NCBI GenBank assembly: GCA_016199495.1
Contig: JACQGQ010000037.1
Location: 1 to 37,009, forward strand
Direction: 5' to 3'
DNA length: 37,009 bases
Source of the DNA: Chloroflexota bacterium
GTDB taxonomy: Bacteria; Chloroflexota; Dehalococcoidia; Dehalococcoidales; UBA2162
Of the stretch, positions 10,300 through 34,516 are shown piece after piece. The stretch's first letter is position 1. Every line of letters begins with the position of its first letter. The translations under genes and the position numbers were made by a program. The notes below the pieces were generated by a model. That model did not search any database and was not told the DNA's origin. It saw only the letters and a program-made list of their open reading frames with translations.

Positions 10300-10436
10300 A
10301 ACCTCACCCCCTTTATCCCCCTCTCCTTGTGAAGGAGAGGGGGAAGAGATTTTAGAGAGGGGGCATTGCCCCCTCTCTTACTACACTCCCCCTTCCCCCG
10401 TATTTAATACGGGGGAAGGGGGCAGGGGGATAGGTT
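10300..10436. repeat. Modular three-hairpin repeat, best intact copy
   Basis: It begins AACCTCACCCCC and ends GGGGGATAGGTT. Between these lie the three palindromes: CCCCCTCTCCTT-GTG-AAGGAGAGGGGG; AGAGAGGGGGC-ATT-GCCCCCTCTCT; and the CCCCCTTCCCCCGTATT...AATACGGGGG arm pair. It is almost identical to the copy at 2985-3121, differing by a few bases. It separates rnj from ftsK. Confidence 0.88.
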
Positions 10437-15466: not shown

Positions 15467-15803
15467 AACCTCACCCCCTTAATCCCCCTCTCCTTGTGAA
15501 GGAGAGGGGGAAATACAGGTTTTGAAGGGGCTTCGCCCCTTCAATCTGCTCCTGATAAAGGGGAAGGGGAGAGACATTAGAAAAGGGGCGCTAGCCCCTC
15601 TGAGACGCCCTGTTAGTCTAAGCTCCCCCGAAGGAAAGGGAGAAGTCCTTCCATGCCATAGTAAGGGTTAGAGAGGGGTAAAGCCCTTTCAGGATTTAGA
15701 AAAGGGATACGGAAGGAGAGTTAAAGAGAGGCTTCGCCTCTCTTATGTAAACCAATGCCCCTTCCCCTTATCAAGGGGAAGGGGATAAAGGGGATGGGGT
15801 TAT
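15467..15803. repeat. Extended modular palindromic repeat cluster
   Basis: This fills the whole prs-secA gap of 366 nt, and no gene is seen in it. It opens AACCTCACCCCCTTAAT with the CCCCCTCTCC/GGAGAGGGGG hairpin. It then has TTGAAGGGGC-TTC-GCCCCTTCAA (15518-15545), several decayed hairpins, AAGAGAGGC-TTC-GCCTCTCTT near 15725, and CCCCTTCCCCTT...AAGGGGAAGGGG with a closing GGATGGGGTTATT. It looks like two or more copies inserted side by side and partly degraded. Confidence 0.75.
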
Positions 15804-23849: not shown

Positions 23850-26525
23850 CTAAAATTTAGCTACCTGCTGTCTTAGCCTTTCCAGCTTATCCCTTACTAT
23901 CCCCAGCTTGTCTCGCTCCTTGCCAATAACCGCCGCCGGTGCCTTAGCCAGAAAGTCGCTATTATTGAGCCTGGATTCAAGACGGCTCGCCTCAGCCTGG
24001 CTTTGCTCTATCTCCTTTTCCAGTCGCTGCCTCTCACCTTCTAAATCTACCATACTTTCCATCGGGATGACTACCTCAGTTTCCTTGAGCACCGCGACCA
24101 CGCTATTTTCACCCGGTGGAGCCTCCTCCCGGTTACCGATGAAGGTAACCGGCCTTGCCCTGGCTAATGTCTCGATCGCCTGAGAATAGGGCGTAATCGC
24201 CGGCGTCAGCTTACCACCGTAGATTTGAGCTTCAACCCAGCGGCTACTCTCGACATTATAGTGAATCCGGGTATTACGGATAGAACGTATTATCTCTATT
24301 ACCGCCTCCATAACACGCTCGGCTTCAGGGTCAACGGCTTGGGCATCAGCCTCGGGATAAGGCGCTACCATTATCGACTCACCAACCGGCCAGTCCGAAG
24401 CCAGGTGGCGCTTGAGGTTCTGCCACAGCTCTTCGGTCAGGAAAGGCATATAGGGGTGCAGCAGGCGGAGTGAAGTCTCGAGAACATAAACCAGGACGGT
24501 CAGGGGTGTCAGCACTGGCTCCGTAGCGGCGCGCAGGCGAGTCTTTGCCAGCTCGATATACCAGTCGCAGAATTCGCTCCAGAGGAAATCGTAGATTTGC
24601 TTTTGTGCCTCGCCAAACTGAAAATCCTCCATGAGACTGGTGACACTGGCTATAGTACGACTGAGCCGGCTCAGAATCCAGCGGTCTTCCAGCGCCAGTG
24701 CCCCCCACTGAATTGCCTGACCAGTCCAATCTGTCCCGATGCTCCTGAGCACGAAGCGGGTGGCATTCCACAGCTTGTTGGCGAAGTTGCGGCCGGTCTC
24801 CAACCTGGCTTGAGTCAGCTTGATATCGTTACCTGGCGCGGTGCCGGTGGAGACGGCGAAGCGCAGGGCATCAGTGCCGTATTTTTCCAGGGTATCAATC
24901 GGATTAAGCACATTGCCCCTGATTTTGCTCATCTTCTCCCCCCGCTCGTCCCGTATCAGTCCGTGCAGGTAAACGGTATGGAAGGGGATATTACCGGTAT
25001 CCTCCAGACCCATCATAATCATTCTGGCGACCCAGAAGAAAAGAATATCATAGCCGGTCTCCATCACCGTCGTTGGGTAGAAGTAGCCCATATCCTCGGT
25101 CTCGTCCGGCCAGCCCAGCGTGGAGTGTGTCCACAAGGCTGAGCTAAACCAGGTATCGAGCACATCCGGGTCTGGCTCGATACTGGCTGAGCCACAGTGC
25201 TGGCAAGCTTTAACATCCTCAACCGTCACCGTTAGCTCACCACACTGCTGGCAATACCACACCGGGATGGGGTGTCCCCACCATAGCTGCCGACTGATGC
25301 ACCAGTCACGGATATTCTCCATCCAGTTGAGATAGACCCTGGTAAAGCGGGGGGGAATAATGGTGATACGTCCGTCGACAACAGCCTCGATAGCCGGTTG
25401 CGCCAGGGGTTTGGTATTGATAAACCATTGCTTACTGGCAATCGGCTCAATCACCGTCTGGCAGCGCTGGCAGTGTCCCACCGCGTGGGCGTAAGGCTCA
25501 ACCTTGACCAGCAAGCCATCCTTTTCCAGGTCAGCCAGTATGGCGCCACGGCAGGCAAAACGGTCAAGCCCGGCATAGGGCCCGGCATTCTCATTCATGG
25601 TCGCATCCGGGTTCAGTATATTGATGAGCGGCAATCCCTGCCGCTGCGCCACCTCGAAGTCCACCGGGTCGTGCGCCGGGGTGATTTTAACCGCCCCGGT
25701 ACCAAAGCCGGGGTCAACCGCTTCATCGGCAATGACAGGTATTGCCCGGTTGACCGCCGGCAGGATAACTTTTTTACCGACCATAGCCTTAAACCGTTCG
25801 TCTTTGGGATTGACCGCCACGGCCGTATCGCCCAAGATGGTCTCCGGCCGGGTAGTGGCTACGGTAATAAAACCATCGCTGTCAGCCAGGTGATAGCGAA
25901 CATAATAGAGATGACCAGTGAGTTCTTTATGGTCGGTCTCAAGGTCAGAGAGGGCCGTGGCACAACGAGGGCACCAGTTGATAATCCGTTCCCCGCGGTA
26001 GATTAAGCCTTTATCATAGAGACGGACAAAAGCGGTACGTACCGCCCGGCTAGGCGCCTCATCCAGCGTAAAACGCTCCCGACTCCAGTCGCAAGAAACA
26101 CCCAACCTCTGGTGCTGGCGGGCAATAGTCTGGCGACAGTTTTCCGCCCACTGAGCTATTCTCTGCATAAACTGGTCTCGGCCGAGCTGATGCCGGTCTA
26201 TCCCTTCTTCCGCCAGCAATCTCTCCAGTACCACCTGCGTGGCAATACCAGCGTGGTCAACCCCGGGCAGCCACAGTGTCGGCTCGCCTTTCATGCGGTG
26301 CCAGCGAATCATAATGTCTTCCAGAGTGGCCGTCAAGGCATGCCCGACATGAAGCTCACCGGTAACATTGGGCGGCGGCATGATAATGACGAAGGGCTTT
26401 TTCTCCCGGTCTATCCTGGGCTTAAAGTAGTCCTTCTCCAGCCAGAACTGATACCACTTCTGCTCGACATTGCCCGGCTCATAGGCTCTGGGCATTTCGT
26501 CTTGAATCTGTTTTGATTCTGTCAT
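23850..26525 (-). CDS. valS: Valyl-tRNA synthetase
   Basis: Charges tRNA-Val and edits mischarged Thr. At 891 residues it is full length. The class I signature HVGH lies at 59-62 (PPPNVTGELHVGHAL). The CP1 editing domain follows (ATTRPETILGDTAVAV, GTGAVKITPAHDPVDFEVA). Zinc-binding WYCQQCGE/CQHCGS and the EKMSKIRGNV KMSKS loop near 530 come next, then the anticodon-binding domain and the C-terminal coiled coil (LEGERQRLEKEIEQSQAEASRLESRL) that contacts tRNA. The ATG start has GGGAG upstream. No T-box leader is seen; the upstream gap is filled by the repeat at 26552-26790. Confidence 0.97.
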   Translation of the reverse strand: MTESKQIQDEMPRAYEPGNVEQKWYQFWLEKDYFKPRIDREKKPFVIIMPPPNVTGELHVGHALTATLEDIMIRWHRMKGEPTLWLPGVDHAGIATQVVLERLLAEEGIDRHQLGRDQFMQRIAQWAENCRQTIARQHQRLGVSCDWSRERFTLDEAPSRAVRTAFVRLYDKGLIYRGERIINWCPRCATALSDLETDHKELTGHLYYVRYHLADSDGFITVATTRPETILGDTAVAVNPKDERFKAMVGKKVILPAVNRAIPVIADEAVDPGFGTGAVKITPAHDPVDFEVAQRQGLPLINILNPDATMNENAGPYAGLDRFACRGAILADLEKDGLLVKVEPYAHAVGHCQRCQTVIEPIASKQWFINTKPLAQPAIEAVVDGRITIIPPRFTRVYLNWMENIRDWCISRQLWWGHPIPVWYCQQCGELTVTVEDVKACQHCGSASIEPDPDVLDTWFSSALWTHSTLGWPDETEDMGYFYPTTVMETGYDILFFWVARMIMMGLEDTGNIPFHTVYLHGLIRDERGEKMSKIRGNVLNPIDTLEKYGTDALRFAVSTGTAPGNDIKLTQARLETGRNFANKLWNATRFVLRSIGTDWTGQAIQWGALALEDRWILSRLSRTIASVTSLMEDFQFGEAQKQIYDFLWSEFCDWYIELAKTRLRAATEPVLTPLTVLVYVLETSLRLLHPYMPFLTEELWQNLKRHLASDWPVGESIMVAPYPEADAQAVDPEAERVMEAVIEIIRSIRNTRIHYNVESSRWVEAQIYGGKLTPAITPYSQAIETLARARPVTFIGNREEAPPGENSVVAVLKETEVVIPMESMVDLEGERQRLEKEIEQSQAEASRLESRLNNSDFLAKAPAAVIGKERDKLGIVRDKLERLRQQVAKF

Positions 26526-26551: not shown

Positions 26552-26790
26552 AACCTCACCCCCTTAATCCCCCTCTCCTTGTGAAGGAGAGGGGGAGGGG
26601 ATTTTTTAGAGAGGCTTCGCCTCTCTTTGCCTCACCTTTACTTAAATCCCTCTCGCTCTCCCTTTCTGAAAGGGAGAAGTTCTCCCCCTTTGGCAAAGGG
26701 GGACTCAGGGGAATTTCCCTCATGGGCTTCGCCCCCTCTCTTATCCATACTCCCCCTTCCCTTAGTAAGGGAAGGGGGTCAGGGGGATGG
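26552..26790. repeat. Modular palindromic repeat cluster, extended copy
   Basis: It starts AACCTCACCCCCTTAATCC. It has the CCCCCTCTCCTT-GTG-AAGGAGAGGGGG hairpin, AGAGAGGC-TTC-GCCTCTCT (near 26607-26626), CCCTTTCTGAAAGGG, CCCCCTTTGGCAAAGGGGG, GGGCTTCGCCCC, and a CCCCCTTCCCTTAGTAAGGGAAGGGGG closing palindrome ending GGGGGATGG. Compared with 10300-10436 it contains an extra block of about 100 bp between modules. It lies between valS and the nuclease gene. Confidence 0.78.
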
Positions 26791-26795
26791 ATTTA

Positions 26796-27770
26796 TCATC
26801 TGCCACCACGTAGACTTCTTACTTGTTCTTCTAAGTCTTTCAGAAGTCGCCCTTCCTGCGTTTTCCAGTATATGGGGCCCCATACCCCATGCTCGTCATG
26901 TTTAAAACTATGCTTTATTAGAAGAATTTTGGCAAGCTCGGATTTCGAATAGTTGCGTCCATCTCCTTCATATTTCAGTTCGTTTGAGGAAGCTATTACT
27001 TGCGCTCGTTCATCCGTGAATAGTCGGGTATTGTAGAAATACAAAACCTGCCTATCACTAAGCAAACCGTAGCTCATAAGTTCTTCAAATGTGACTTTTC
27101 CTCTAATCTTTAGCTGGCCACGAGGAAGCCTAATCTTCTGCCCCTCTTCAGAACTATCTATCGGTGTAAGTGGTAAAGAAGGTGAGACAGCATACAAAGG
27201 CTCAAATAAATGGGCATGGACTGATTCTGCTCCCACTCTCTTGAAGGTCTGGAACTCTACGACATTTATGGGGGAGTATCTAAGCAGGTCTAACGCTTCA
27301 TCTAATTCTCGTGTTCCATTCTCTATAATGACCACTAATATAGGGGGCTTCGTTATTAGGTCTGAAATAAACTTAAAAATTTCGCCAGAACCTATCGCCT
27401 CCTCAAATTTTACTTTTCGTTGTCTGTTTCCCTGTATATGTTGATATATGGCTTCAATAATCTTTTTTTGAGTAGCAGTTGTCCTTACGCCATTAATAAA
27501 TCTACCTACCTGATTTACTATATGGTCGTACAATTGGTGAGTAGACAATTCTATTTCCACAATATGCCATTTCGGTCCTTCACCGAATGTAATGACAAAC
27601 CCATCGGGCACAGAACCTTTCCCTGACCCCGATTCCAGTCTGCTCCCCTCAATAAATATAGACTTCCCGCCAAAGATTTCTCTGTAGTGTTCTTTAACAA
27701 GCGGATGAAATTCTTCCACCTCCTTTTTGGGTGTCCATAGTTCGTACTTCACACCATCTATAAGTAACAT
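26796..27770 (-). CDS. PD-(D/E)XK-like nuclease with C-terminal RAMA domain
   Basis: A 324-residue protein. The N-terminal half has PDGFVITFG (P55-D56) followed by WHIVEIELSTHQLYDHIVNQVGRF (E72-x-E74, Q87), the arrangement of a PD-(D/E)XK fold but with Glu where the catalytic Lys normally sits. Residues about 225-312 (VTFEELMSYGLLSDRQVLYFYN...DGRNYSKSELAKILL...WGPIYWKTQEGRLLKDL) resemble the RAMA domain found in restriction and adenine-methylase associated proteins, a suspected modified-DNA reader. A role in modification-sensed restriction is inferred. It starts 2 nt after the coaBC stop and uses a ribosome-binding site inside coaBC, yet is AT-richer, so it looks like a later insertion into that transcript. 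No methylase gene is seen nearby. Confidence 0.7.
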   Translation of the reverse strand: MLLIDGVKYELWTPKKEVEEFHPLVKEHYREIFGGKSIFIEGSRLESGSGKGSVPDGFVITFGEGPKWHIVEIELSTHQLYDHIVNQVGRFINGVRTTATQKKIIEAIYQHIQGNRQRKVKFEEAIGSGEIFKFISDLITKPPILVVIIENGTRELDEALDLLRYSPINVVEFQTFKRVGAESVHAHLFEPLYAVSPSLPLTPIDSSEEGQKIRLPRGQLKIRGKVTFEELMSYGLLSDRQVLYFYNTRLFTDERAQVIASSNELKYEGDGRNYSKSELAKILLIKHSFKHDEHGVWGPIYWKTQEGRLLKDLEEQVRSLRGGR

Positions 27771-27772
27771 TT

Positions 27773-28978
27773 TTATCTCCCACCCTTCTCAGCCAGCATC
27801 CCCACCACCCTGTCCAGTATCTTATCGGCGACCTCTCTCTTGAGCATCAGGGGTAGTTCTTCTACCTTACCGTCCCGGCTAATCAGGGTTACCCTATTGG
27901 TATCGACGGTGAAGCCGCTATCGGGAGCGGTCACATCATTAGCAGCAATGAGGTCAAGCTGCTTCTTAGCCAGCTTTTGCCGGGCATTAGCCACGTGGTC
28001 TTCGGTCTCGGCGGCAAAACCGACCCTGAGAAAGTCACCCTTGACCTCAGCCAGAATATCCGGCGTCTTCACCAGTTCCAGGGTTAAGCCAGCGCCGGCC
28101 GCTTCTTTCTTAATTTTCTGTCTGGCAGTGCTCTTAGGCTGATAGTCGGCAACCGCCGCCGTCATAATCAGGGCATCCGCCTGAGCGCAGGCCCTGGTTA
28201 CTGCCTCCTTCATCTCAACAGCACTGGTGATATGAACAACATCAATGCCCACTGGCTCAGACAGGGCAGAAGGAGCGGTGATGAGCGTCACTTTAGCCCC
28301 CCTATCCCTAGCCGCCTCAGCCACGGCGTAACCCATCTTACCTGAGGAACGATTGCCCACATAGCGCACCGGGTCGATAGCTTCCTGCGTACCGCCGGCG
28401 GTCACCACGATACGGCGCGCCGCCAGGTCACCGCTCCGGCCCAATACCTGCTTGATGGTGCCGATGATTTTCTCGACTTCAGCCAGGCGCCCCAGGCCTA
28501 CTTTACCCGAAGCTAAGCGGCCATAGGCCGGGTCGACGATAGTGAAACCCCTGGCTTTGAGCTTAGCCAGGTTATCCTGAGTGACCGAGTTCTGGAACAT
28601 GTTAACATTCATCGCCGGGGCGATAATGACCGGCGCTTCCGTCGCCAGCACCGTGGCCGACAACATATCATCGGCGAGACCAACCGCCAGCTTGGCGATG
28701 ATATTAGCTGTCGCCGGGGCGATAACGACGACATCGGCGGCTTCCGCCAGGGCGACGTGCTCAAGGCTGAACTCGGAGGCAAGCTCAAACATTCCGGTCA
28801 CTACCGGTTGGTTTGTCAGGCTGCGGAAGGTTAGCGGACTAACAAACTCGGTAGCTGACTCGGTCATAACCACCCTAACCTCAGCCCCGGCTTGAACCAG
28901 CTTGCTGGCGATATCAGCCGCCTTATAGGCGGCGATACTGCCGGTTACACCCAATACTACAGTTTTGTTAGTTAGCAT
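27773..28978 (-). CDS. coaBC: Bifunctional CoaBC (PPC synthetase/decarboxylase)
   Basis: Joins cysteine to 4'-phosphopantothenate (CoaB) and decarboxylates the product (CoaC) on the way to coenzyme A. It has 401 residues. The N-terminal flavoprotein has GSIAAYKAADI, the catalytic His74 in LEHVALAEAAD, and APAMNVNMF at 120-128. The C-terminal synthetase has ITAGGTQEAIDPVRYVGNRSSGKMG, AAVADYQP and the substrate-binding KIKK segment. At the decarboxylase motif normally written ACGxxGxGR this protein has ASGKVGLGR, so the usual Cys is Ser157. The ATG start has GGAGG upstream. Clustered with coaX and nnr. Confidence 0.96.
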   Translation of the reverse strand: MLTNKTVVLGVTGSIAAYKAADIASKLVQAGAEVRVVMTESATEFVSPLTFRSLTNQPVVTGMFELASEFSLEHVALAEAADVVVIAPATANIIAKLAVGLADDMLSATVLATEAPVIIAPAMNVNMFQNSVTQDNLAKLKARGFTIVDPAYGRLASGKVGLGRLAEVEKIIGTIKQVLGRSGDLAARRIVVTAGGTQEAIDPVRYVGNRSSGKMGYAVAEAARDRGAKVTLITAPSALSEPVGIDVVHITSAVEMKEAVTRACAQADALIMTAAVADYQPKSTARQKIKKEAAGAGLTLELVKTPDILAEVKGDFLRVGFAAETEDHVANARQKLAKKQLDLIAANDVTAPDSGFTVDTNRVTLISRDGKVEELPLMLKREVADKILDRVVGMLAEKGGR

Positions 28979-29048: not shown

Positions 29049-29082
29049 TGTCAGAGAGGCTTCGCCTCTCTTTAACTCTCCT
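29049..29082. repeat. Solitary hairpin module of the repeat family
   Basis: AGAGAGGC-TTC-GCCTCTCT followed by TTTAACTCTCC, identical to the module at 15719-15745 in the other orientation. It lies in the coaX-coaBC gap. On the plus strand it has a short T run. Confidence 0.65.
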
Positions 29083-34390: not shown

Positions 34391-34516
34391 AACCTCACCC
34401 CCTGTATCCCCCTCTCCTTCAAAGGAGAGGGGGAAGAGATTTTAGAGAGGGGCGAAGCCCCTCTCTTACTACACTCCCCCTTCCCTTAGTAAGAGAAGGG
34501 GGCGGGGGGATAGGTT
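34391..34516. repeat. Modular three-hairpin repeat, full copy
   Basis: AACCTCACCCCC...GGGGGGATAGGTT with CCCCCTCTCCTT...AAGGAGAGGGGG, AGAGAGGGGC-GAA-GCCCCTCTCT and CCCCCTTCCCTTAGTAAGAGAAGGGGG. The middle loop is inverted (GAA instead of TTC) relative to other copies. It lies between the transporter and MBL genes. Confidence 0.85.

Follow-up and report, generated by a model that had tools for sequence, protein, structure and literature searches.

A predicted PD-(D/E)XK-like protein family with an invariant E-x-E site and varying C-terminal tails downstream of coaBC in Chloroflexota

The Gene Between coaBC and valS

The window, that is, the whole 37,009-nucleotide stretch of DNA that was analyzed, carries between coaBC and valS an intact reverse-strand reading frame (26796–27770) encoding a protein of 324 amino acids (Table 1). 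The end of coaBC and the ATG of this frame are separated by 2 nt, and a Shine-Dalgarno-like sequence, GGTGGGAG, is found within the final coaBC codons. These coordinates and this sequence bear out the preliminary description, which had placed the start 2 nt past coaBC with its ribosome-binding site inside that gene and had coupled the nuclease-like gene to coaBC. The higher AT content noted at that time was also observed, with GC and GC3 values of 0.414 and 0.373 for the frame compared to 0.571 and 0.647 for coaBC.

Table 1. Features of the locus, with positions in the window
Feature	Position	Strand	Remark
CDS, 324 aa	26799..27770	-	stop codon at 26796-26798
coaBC	27773..28978	-	upstream partner of the slot
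valS	23850..26525	-	downstream border of the slot
Shine-Dalgarno-like GGTGGGAG	27777..27784	-	within the final coaBC codons, 3' end
Conserved core, residues 1-195	27186..27770	-	PD-(D/E)XK-like alpha-beta-beta-beta-alpha...beta domain
Gly42	27645..27647	-	Lys in 21/22 members; just past beta-strand 1, on the Asp56 side
Asp56 of the P-D motif	27603..27605	-	invariant 22/22
Glu72-Ile73-Glu74	27549..27557	-	E-x-E replacing (D/E)-x-K; both Glu invariant 22/22
His78, His83, Gln87	27510..27539	-	start of or within the next helix; invariant 22/22
RAMA-like tail, about residues 222-320	26811..27107	-	from profile comparison and predicted elements

Searches of Pfam, NCBIfam and PADLOC with the 324-aa protein gave zero matches at E ≤ 10, the defence-system models of PADLOC included, while PHROGs and PDB sequences returned noise only. 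Searches of phage and plasmid records and of viral contigs recovered no relatives. Genome searches yielded about 22 relatives, with homology limited to residues 1 to about 195–200. Residue statistics were taken from an alignment of 22 members, the window protein among them; the weak matches L006, L037 and L038, the last being an SbcC/Rad50-like protein as judged by eye, were excluded.

Repeats were observed in the same region. A hairpin, GAGAGGCTTCGCCTCTCTTT, occurs at 26609–26628, 29054–29073 and 15726–15745 of the window, and the first two of these copies flank the coaBC-nuclease pair. With 19 copies in the genome (at most 1 mismatch) compared to 0 for the reversed control, it looks like a short interspersed palindromic repeat. 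A CCCCCTTAATCCCCCTCTCCTT-like repeat matched the window 8 times against an expectation of 0, at sites including 26559–26580, 15474–15495, 10307–10328 and 34398–34419.

Fold of the Conserved Core

The AF2 model of the core, built from the family alignment, reached a pLDDT of 86.4 and a pTM of 0.82. It comprises a helix (residues 17–27), three strands (37–41, 57–61 and 67–74), a second helix (80–94) and a later strand (144–149), which is the alpha-beta-beta-beta-alpha-beta order of PD-(D/E)XK domains. The acidic pair is located as expected for this fold, with Asp56 starting strand 57–61 and Glu72 lying in strand 67–74.

Comparison of the model with viral models (BFVD) in Foldseek matched gp54 of phage G (E = 5.8e-6, probability 1.0). 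This protein (L077:16934–17824) is itself unannotated and is a predicted PD-(D/E)XK protein. A search of PDB structures with the core alone gave no match at E < 0.001; the top TM-scores among the matches listed were those of EndoMS/NucS, BsmI and YaeQ (TMq 0.30–0.39), all PD-(D/E)XK nuclease-fold proteins, each match being individually non-significant. Judging from the model, the core of the 324-aa protein is likely to have a PD-(D/E)XK-like fold, and the PD...ExE...Q nuclease-like core of the preliminary description is upheld by the predicted fold, the gp54 match and the invariance of the motif in 22 members.

The pN/pS ratio of the core in three close pairs was 0.20, 0.20 and 0.08, values low enough to indicate purifying selection acting on it. 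Neither the core family nor its E-x-E site turned up in the libraries and literature searched, nor did the fixed slot or the variety of tails on a single core; the core family is regarded as uncatalogued and undescribed.

Active-Site Residues

The motif of the window protein reads P55-D56...E72-I-E74...H78...H83...Q87, and the residues invariant in the 22-member alignment are Asp5, Tyr9, Glu17, Gly34, Pro55, Asp56, Glu72, Glu74, Leu75, His78, His83 and Gln87. Because its positions stay invariant throughout, the motif is not a chance pattern. The residue two places past the second acid, where the canonical PD-(D/E)XK lysine is expected, was Glu in 22 of 22 members; the survey of homologs for Lys at position 74, proposed earlier, thus found it in 0 of 22, and the replacement of the catalytic Lys read from the single sequence is confirmed.

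Since this Glu is invariant, the change from Lys is a family rule and not decay, and it marks, as far as the alignment can tell, a variant, non-canonical active site. The site had initially been called variant or inactive: the variant part stands, and decay is ruled out by the invariance together with purifying selection on the core. Active restriction enzymes are known in which Glu, Gln or Asn takes the place of the Lys, and for COG4636 a migration of the Lys to another structural element has been modelled (PMC551604).

The window protein alone among the 22 members carries Gly42, the other 21 having Lys42. With this lysine lost, the activity of the window's own copy is in doubt: it may be less typical than its relatives, and Gly42 may reflect a loss of activity.

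A DNA- or nucleotide-binding role without cutting is possible, as no member has the Lys at its canonical position. The nuclease fold would then have been kept and cutting lost, with the protein serving as a regulator or decoy in which the E-x-E site binds a metal or ligand to a different end. Inactive REase-fold domains serving as nucleotide sensors are on record (PMC12839542), and the absence of Lys42 from the window copy points in the same direction. However, the joint invariance of three acidic positions, two His and a Gln exceeds the needs of binding, the known replacements of Lys occur in active enzymes (PMC551604), and the tails are of restriction type, so that this role is considered rather improbable.

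C-Terminal Tails

Past residue 200 or so, the tails of family members differ, a variation that, like the common coaBC-valS slot, the preliminary description had not recognized. When assigned with the curated Pfam cut-offs, RAMA tails were found in L012, L017 and L033, an Mrr_N tail in L019 (with a weak Mrr_N match in L023), DUF4268 in L015 and L035, and DUF5655 in L018, L022 and L030, with L026 narrowly below the cut-off. A module without a Pfam hit, named B3/AbrB-like by eye (W..HP..k..D+v...viE.MK+YrL), is common to L002, L011, L013, L020 and L034. One further unnamed tail is common to L005 and L036, and L014, L016 and L021 have other tails again. Several of these modules are known from restriction contexts (PMC4619093; PMC11037411).

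Homologs of the B3-like tail were also observed as stand-alone genes after coaBC, lacking the core (L043:2680–2979 and a 91 aa ORF in L046). Small proteins in which an N-terminal zinc-ribbon-like C..C...C..C stretch is followed by RAMA were noted in L069–L073, from genomes of the window's family.

The tail of the window protein stayed below the Pfam RAMA cut-off (PF18755), with no hit at E ≤ 10, and its score with the plain RAMA HMM was at noise level. Profile comparison by hhalign with the RAMA tails of its siblings gave P = 0.004 over 86–94 columns, end-to-end, at 27% identity. The score of 21.4 compares with a maximum of 20.3 among 300 shuffles (0/300 reach it), and the RAMA score of the window tail also exceeds those of eight non-RAMA tails; its predicted structural elements are of low confidence. 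The tail can thus be called weakly RAMA-like, the resemblance appearing real but weak on moderate evidence, and the RAMA-like domain proposed at the outset persists in the profile comparison and the shuffles, but not as a Pfam or plain HMM hit.

The proposal that this tail senses modified DNA fared less well. A strict modification-dependent type IV enzyme, in which RAMA reads methyladenine (6mA) and the core cuts, would suit the three sibling tails above the RAMA cut-off, the Mrr_N tail in L019 and a slot in which, by inspection, no methylase ORF was recognized between coaBC and valS, the outcome of the earlier suggestion to look for neighboring methylases. RAMA has also been proposed as a 6mA reader, and its fusions with nucleases are already known (PMC11037411), so the combination is not new. 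In contrast, at least five N6/N4 methylase genes are located outside the slot in the window genome, where one N6_Mtase match and no C5 methylase match were recorded, so self-DNA is probably modified. The solved RAMA domain of MPND binds DNA irrespective of 6mA, showing no preference for it (PMC9963953), other siblings have unrelated tails, and the RAMA resemblance of the window tail is itself weak. Strict 6mA dependence is accordingly judged unlikely.

The coaBC-valS Slot and Its Probable Exchange

Of the Chloroflexota members, thirteen, counting the window protein, are located 3' of coaBC, one of them with an intervening gene, and in 9 of the 13 the spacing is at most 20 nt. A fourteenth Chloroflexota member, L007, adjoins valS on a short contig. 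Neither coaBC nor valS was present within the stretch examined around the divergent L035, L036 and L037, and the members from WOR-3, Nitrososphaeria and Planctomycetota are outside the slot, the distribution beyond Chloroflexota being under-sampled. Defence-type neighbors outside the slot were confined to some members, namely GmrSD_N and YhcG at L016 and HepT at L021.

The gene is patchily distributed, occurring in 11 of the 393 class genomes, and was AT-richer than coaBC in all 13 slot members. The core and coaBC trees rejected each other in the AU test, while the corresponding distances were partly correlated (Mantel r 0.57, p 0.006); despite this partial correlation, simple vertical inheritance with coaBC is ruled out by the AU test. 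Synonymous divergence was lower in the tail than in the core for L013/L020 (p 5e-5) and L012/L033 (p 0.004), which suggests that the tails of these pairs are synonymously younger than the cores. The simplest reading would be homologous recombination via the conserved coaBC and valS flanks, the tails being exchanged to some extent separately from the cores.

It is very improbable that the gene is an ordinary accessory member of the coaBC operon, inherited vertically and serving a housekeeping purpose (e.g., DNA repair) with no tie to defence: the constant position beside coaBC, the coupling in 9/13 and a core fold like that of the repair nuclease NucS/EndoMS would fit it, whereas the patchy presence, the conflicting trees, the GC below coaBC in 13/13, the swapped tails and the relatives outside the slot in archaea, WOR-3 and Planctomycetota do not.

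Where relatives lack the gene, coaBC and valS are separated by a short gap or by other genes, such as those of SLFN_AlbA_2 or DUF4145 proteins. In Dehalococcoidia-type bacteria, almost every known copy occupies this gap, which resembles a small defence slot with exchangeable contents. The small genes downstream of coaBC in L042, L044, L050, L051, L052, L062 and L066 include SLFN_AlbA_2 and DUF4145 and, as judged by eye, NYN-like, GIY-YIG-like and another PD-(D/E)XK-like protein with E-C-K.

Proposed Function

Restriction-type tails, patchy occurrence and some defence-type neighbors favor a small type-IV-like defence nuclease, and on these grounds it seems somewhat probable that the protein is a modular stand-alone nuclease whose tail is an exchangeable DNA-binding module setting the target. 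Its N-terminal PD-(D/E)XK-like domain, constant across the family and bearing a D...E-x-E...H...Q site, would be joined by a flexible linker to this C-terminal module, which would decide the DNA attacked. BamHI has Glu at the Lys position and cleaves DNA in a metal-dependent manner; by analogy, the core may do the same. The gene would be expressed from the coaBC transcript and could be passed among related bacteria by homologous recombination at the coaBC and valS flanks.

A broader proposal is put forward only tentatively: the family may be a new class of single-gene nucleases with a Lys-free E-x-E site, and coaBC-valS in Dehalococcoidia a cassette slot in which cores and tails are re-assorted by flank recombination, providing a population-level repertoire of targets with no mobile element. 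If true, an uncatalogued family whose members all have an active site deviating from the textbook motif would be added to the modular restriction-type nucleases, and a fixed chromosomal site of DNA-reading-domain exchange would be identified in uncultured bacteria. The different tails on one core would also constitute a natural experiment on the targets of RAMA, DUF4268, DUF5655 and the B3-like module.

Comparison with Known Systems

BamHI-type REases and the window family both carry D...E-x-E where D...(D/E)-x-K would be canonical, on equivalent strands (PMC551604 for such replacements in general). Sequence similarity between them is not detectable, and the window family differs in having no methylase recognized in its slot, a different appended domain and the additional invariant His78, His83 and Gln87.

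NucS/EndoMS and YaeQ provide the best PDB fold matches to the core by TM-score among the matches listed, with non-significant E-values; in the window family, the Lys is replaced and the companion domain is different. Bacillus phage G gp54 resembles the family in predicted fold, similar length and N-terminal position of the nuclease domain, but it has a canonical D...E-I-K motif and is 14% identical.

As in PvuRts1I/AbaSI, TagI and the winged-helix fusions, a nuclease and a separate DNA-reading module are combined in one chain. PvuRts1I has an N-terminal PD-(D/E)XK domain and a C-terminal reader (PMC12707154), and the window protein is arranged likewise. Modification dependence, a feature of the PvuRts1I/AbaSI-type fusions, would be no more than a possibility in the window family. 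Unlike these type IV fusions, the family pairs a single core with at least five tails unrelated to one another, for the most part in one chromosomal slot.
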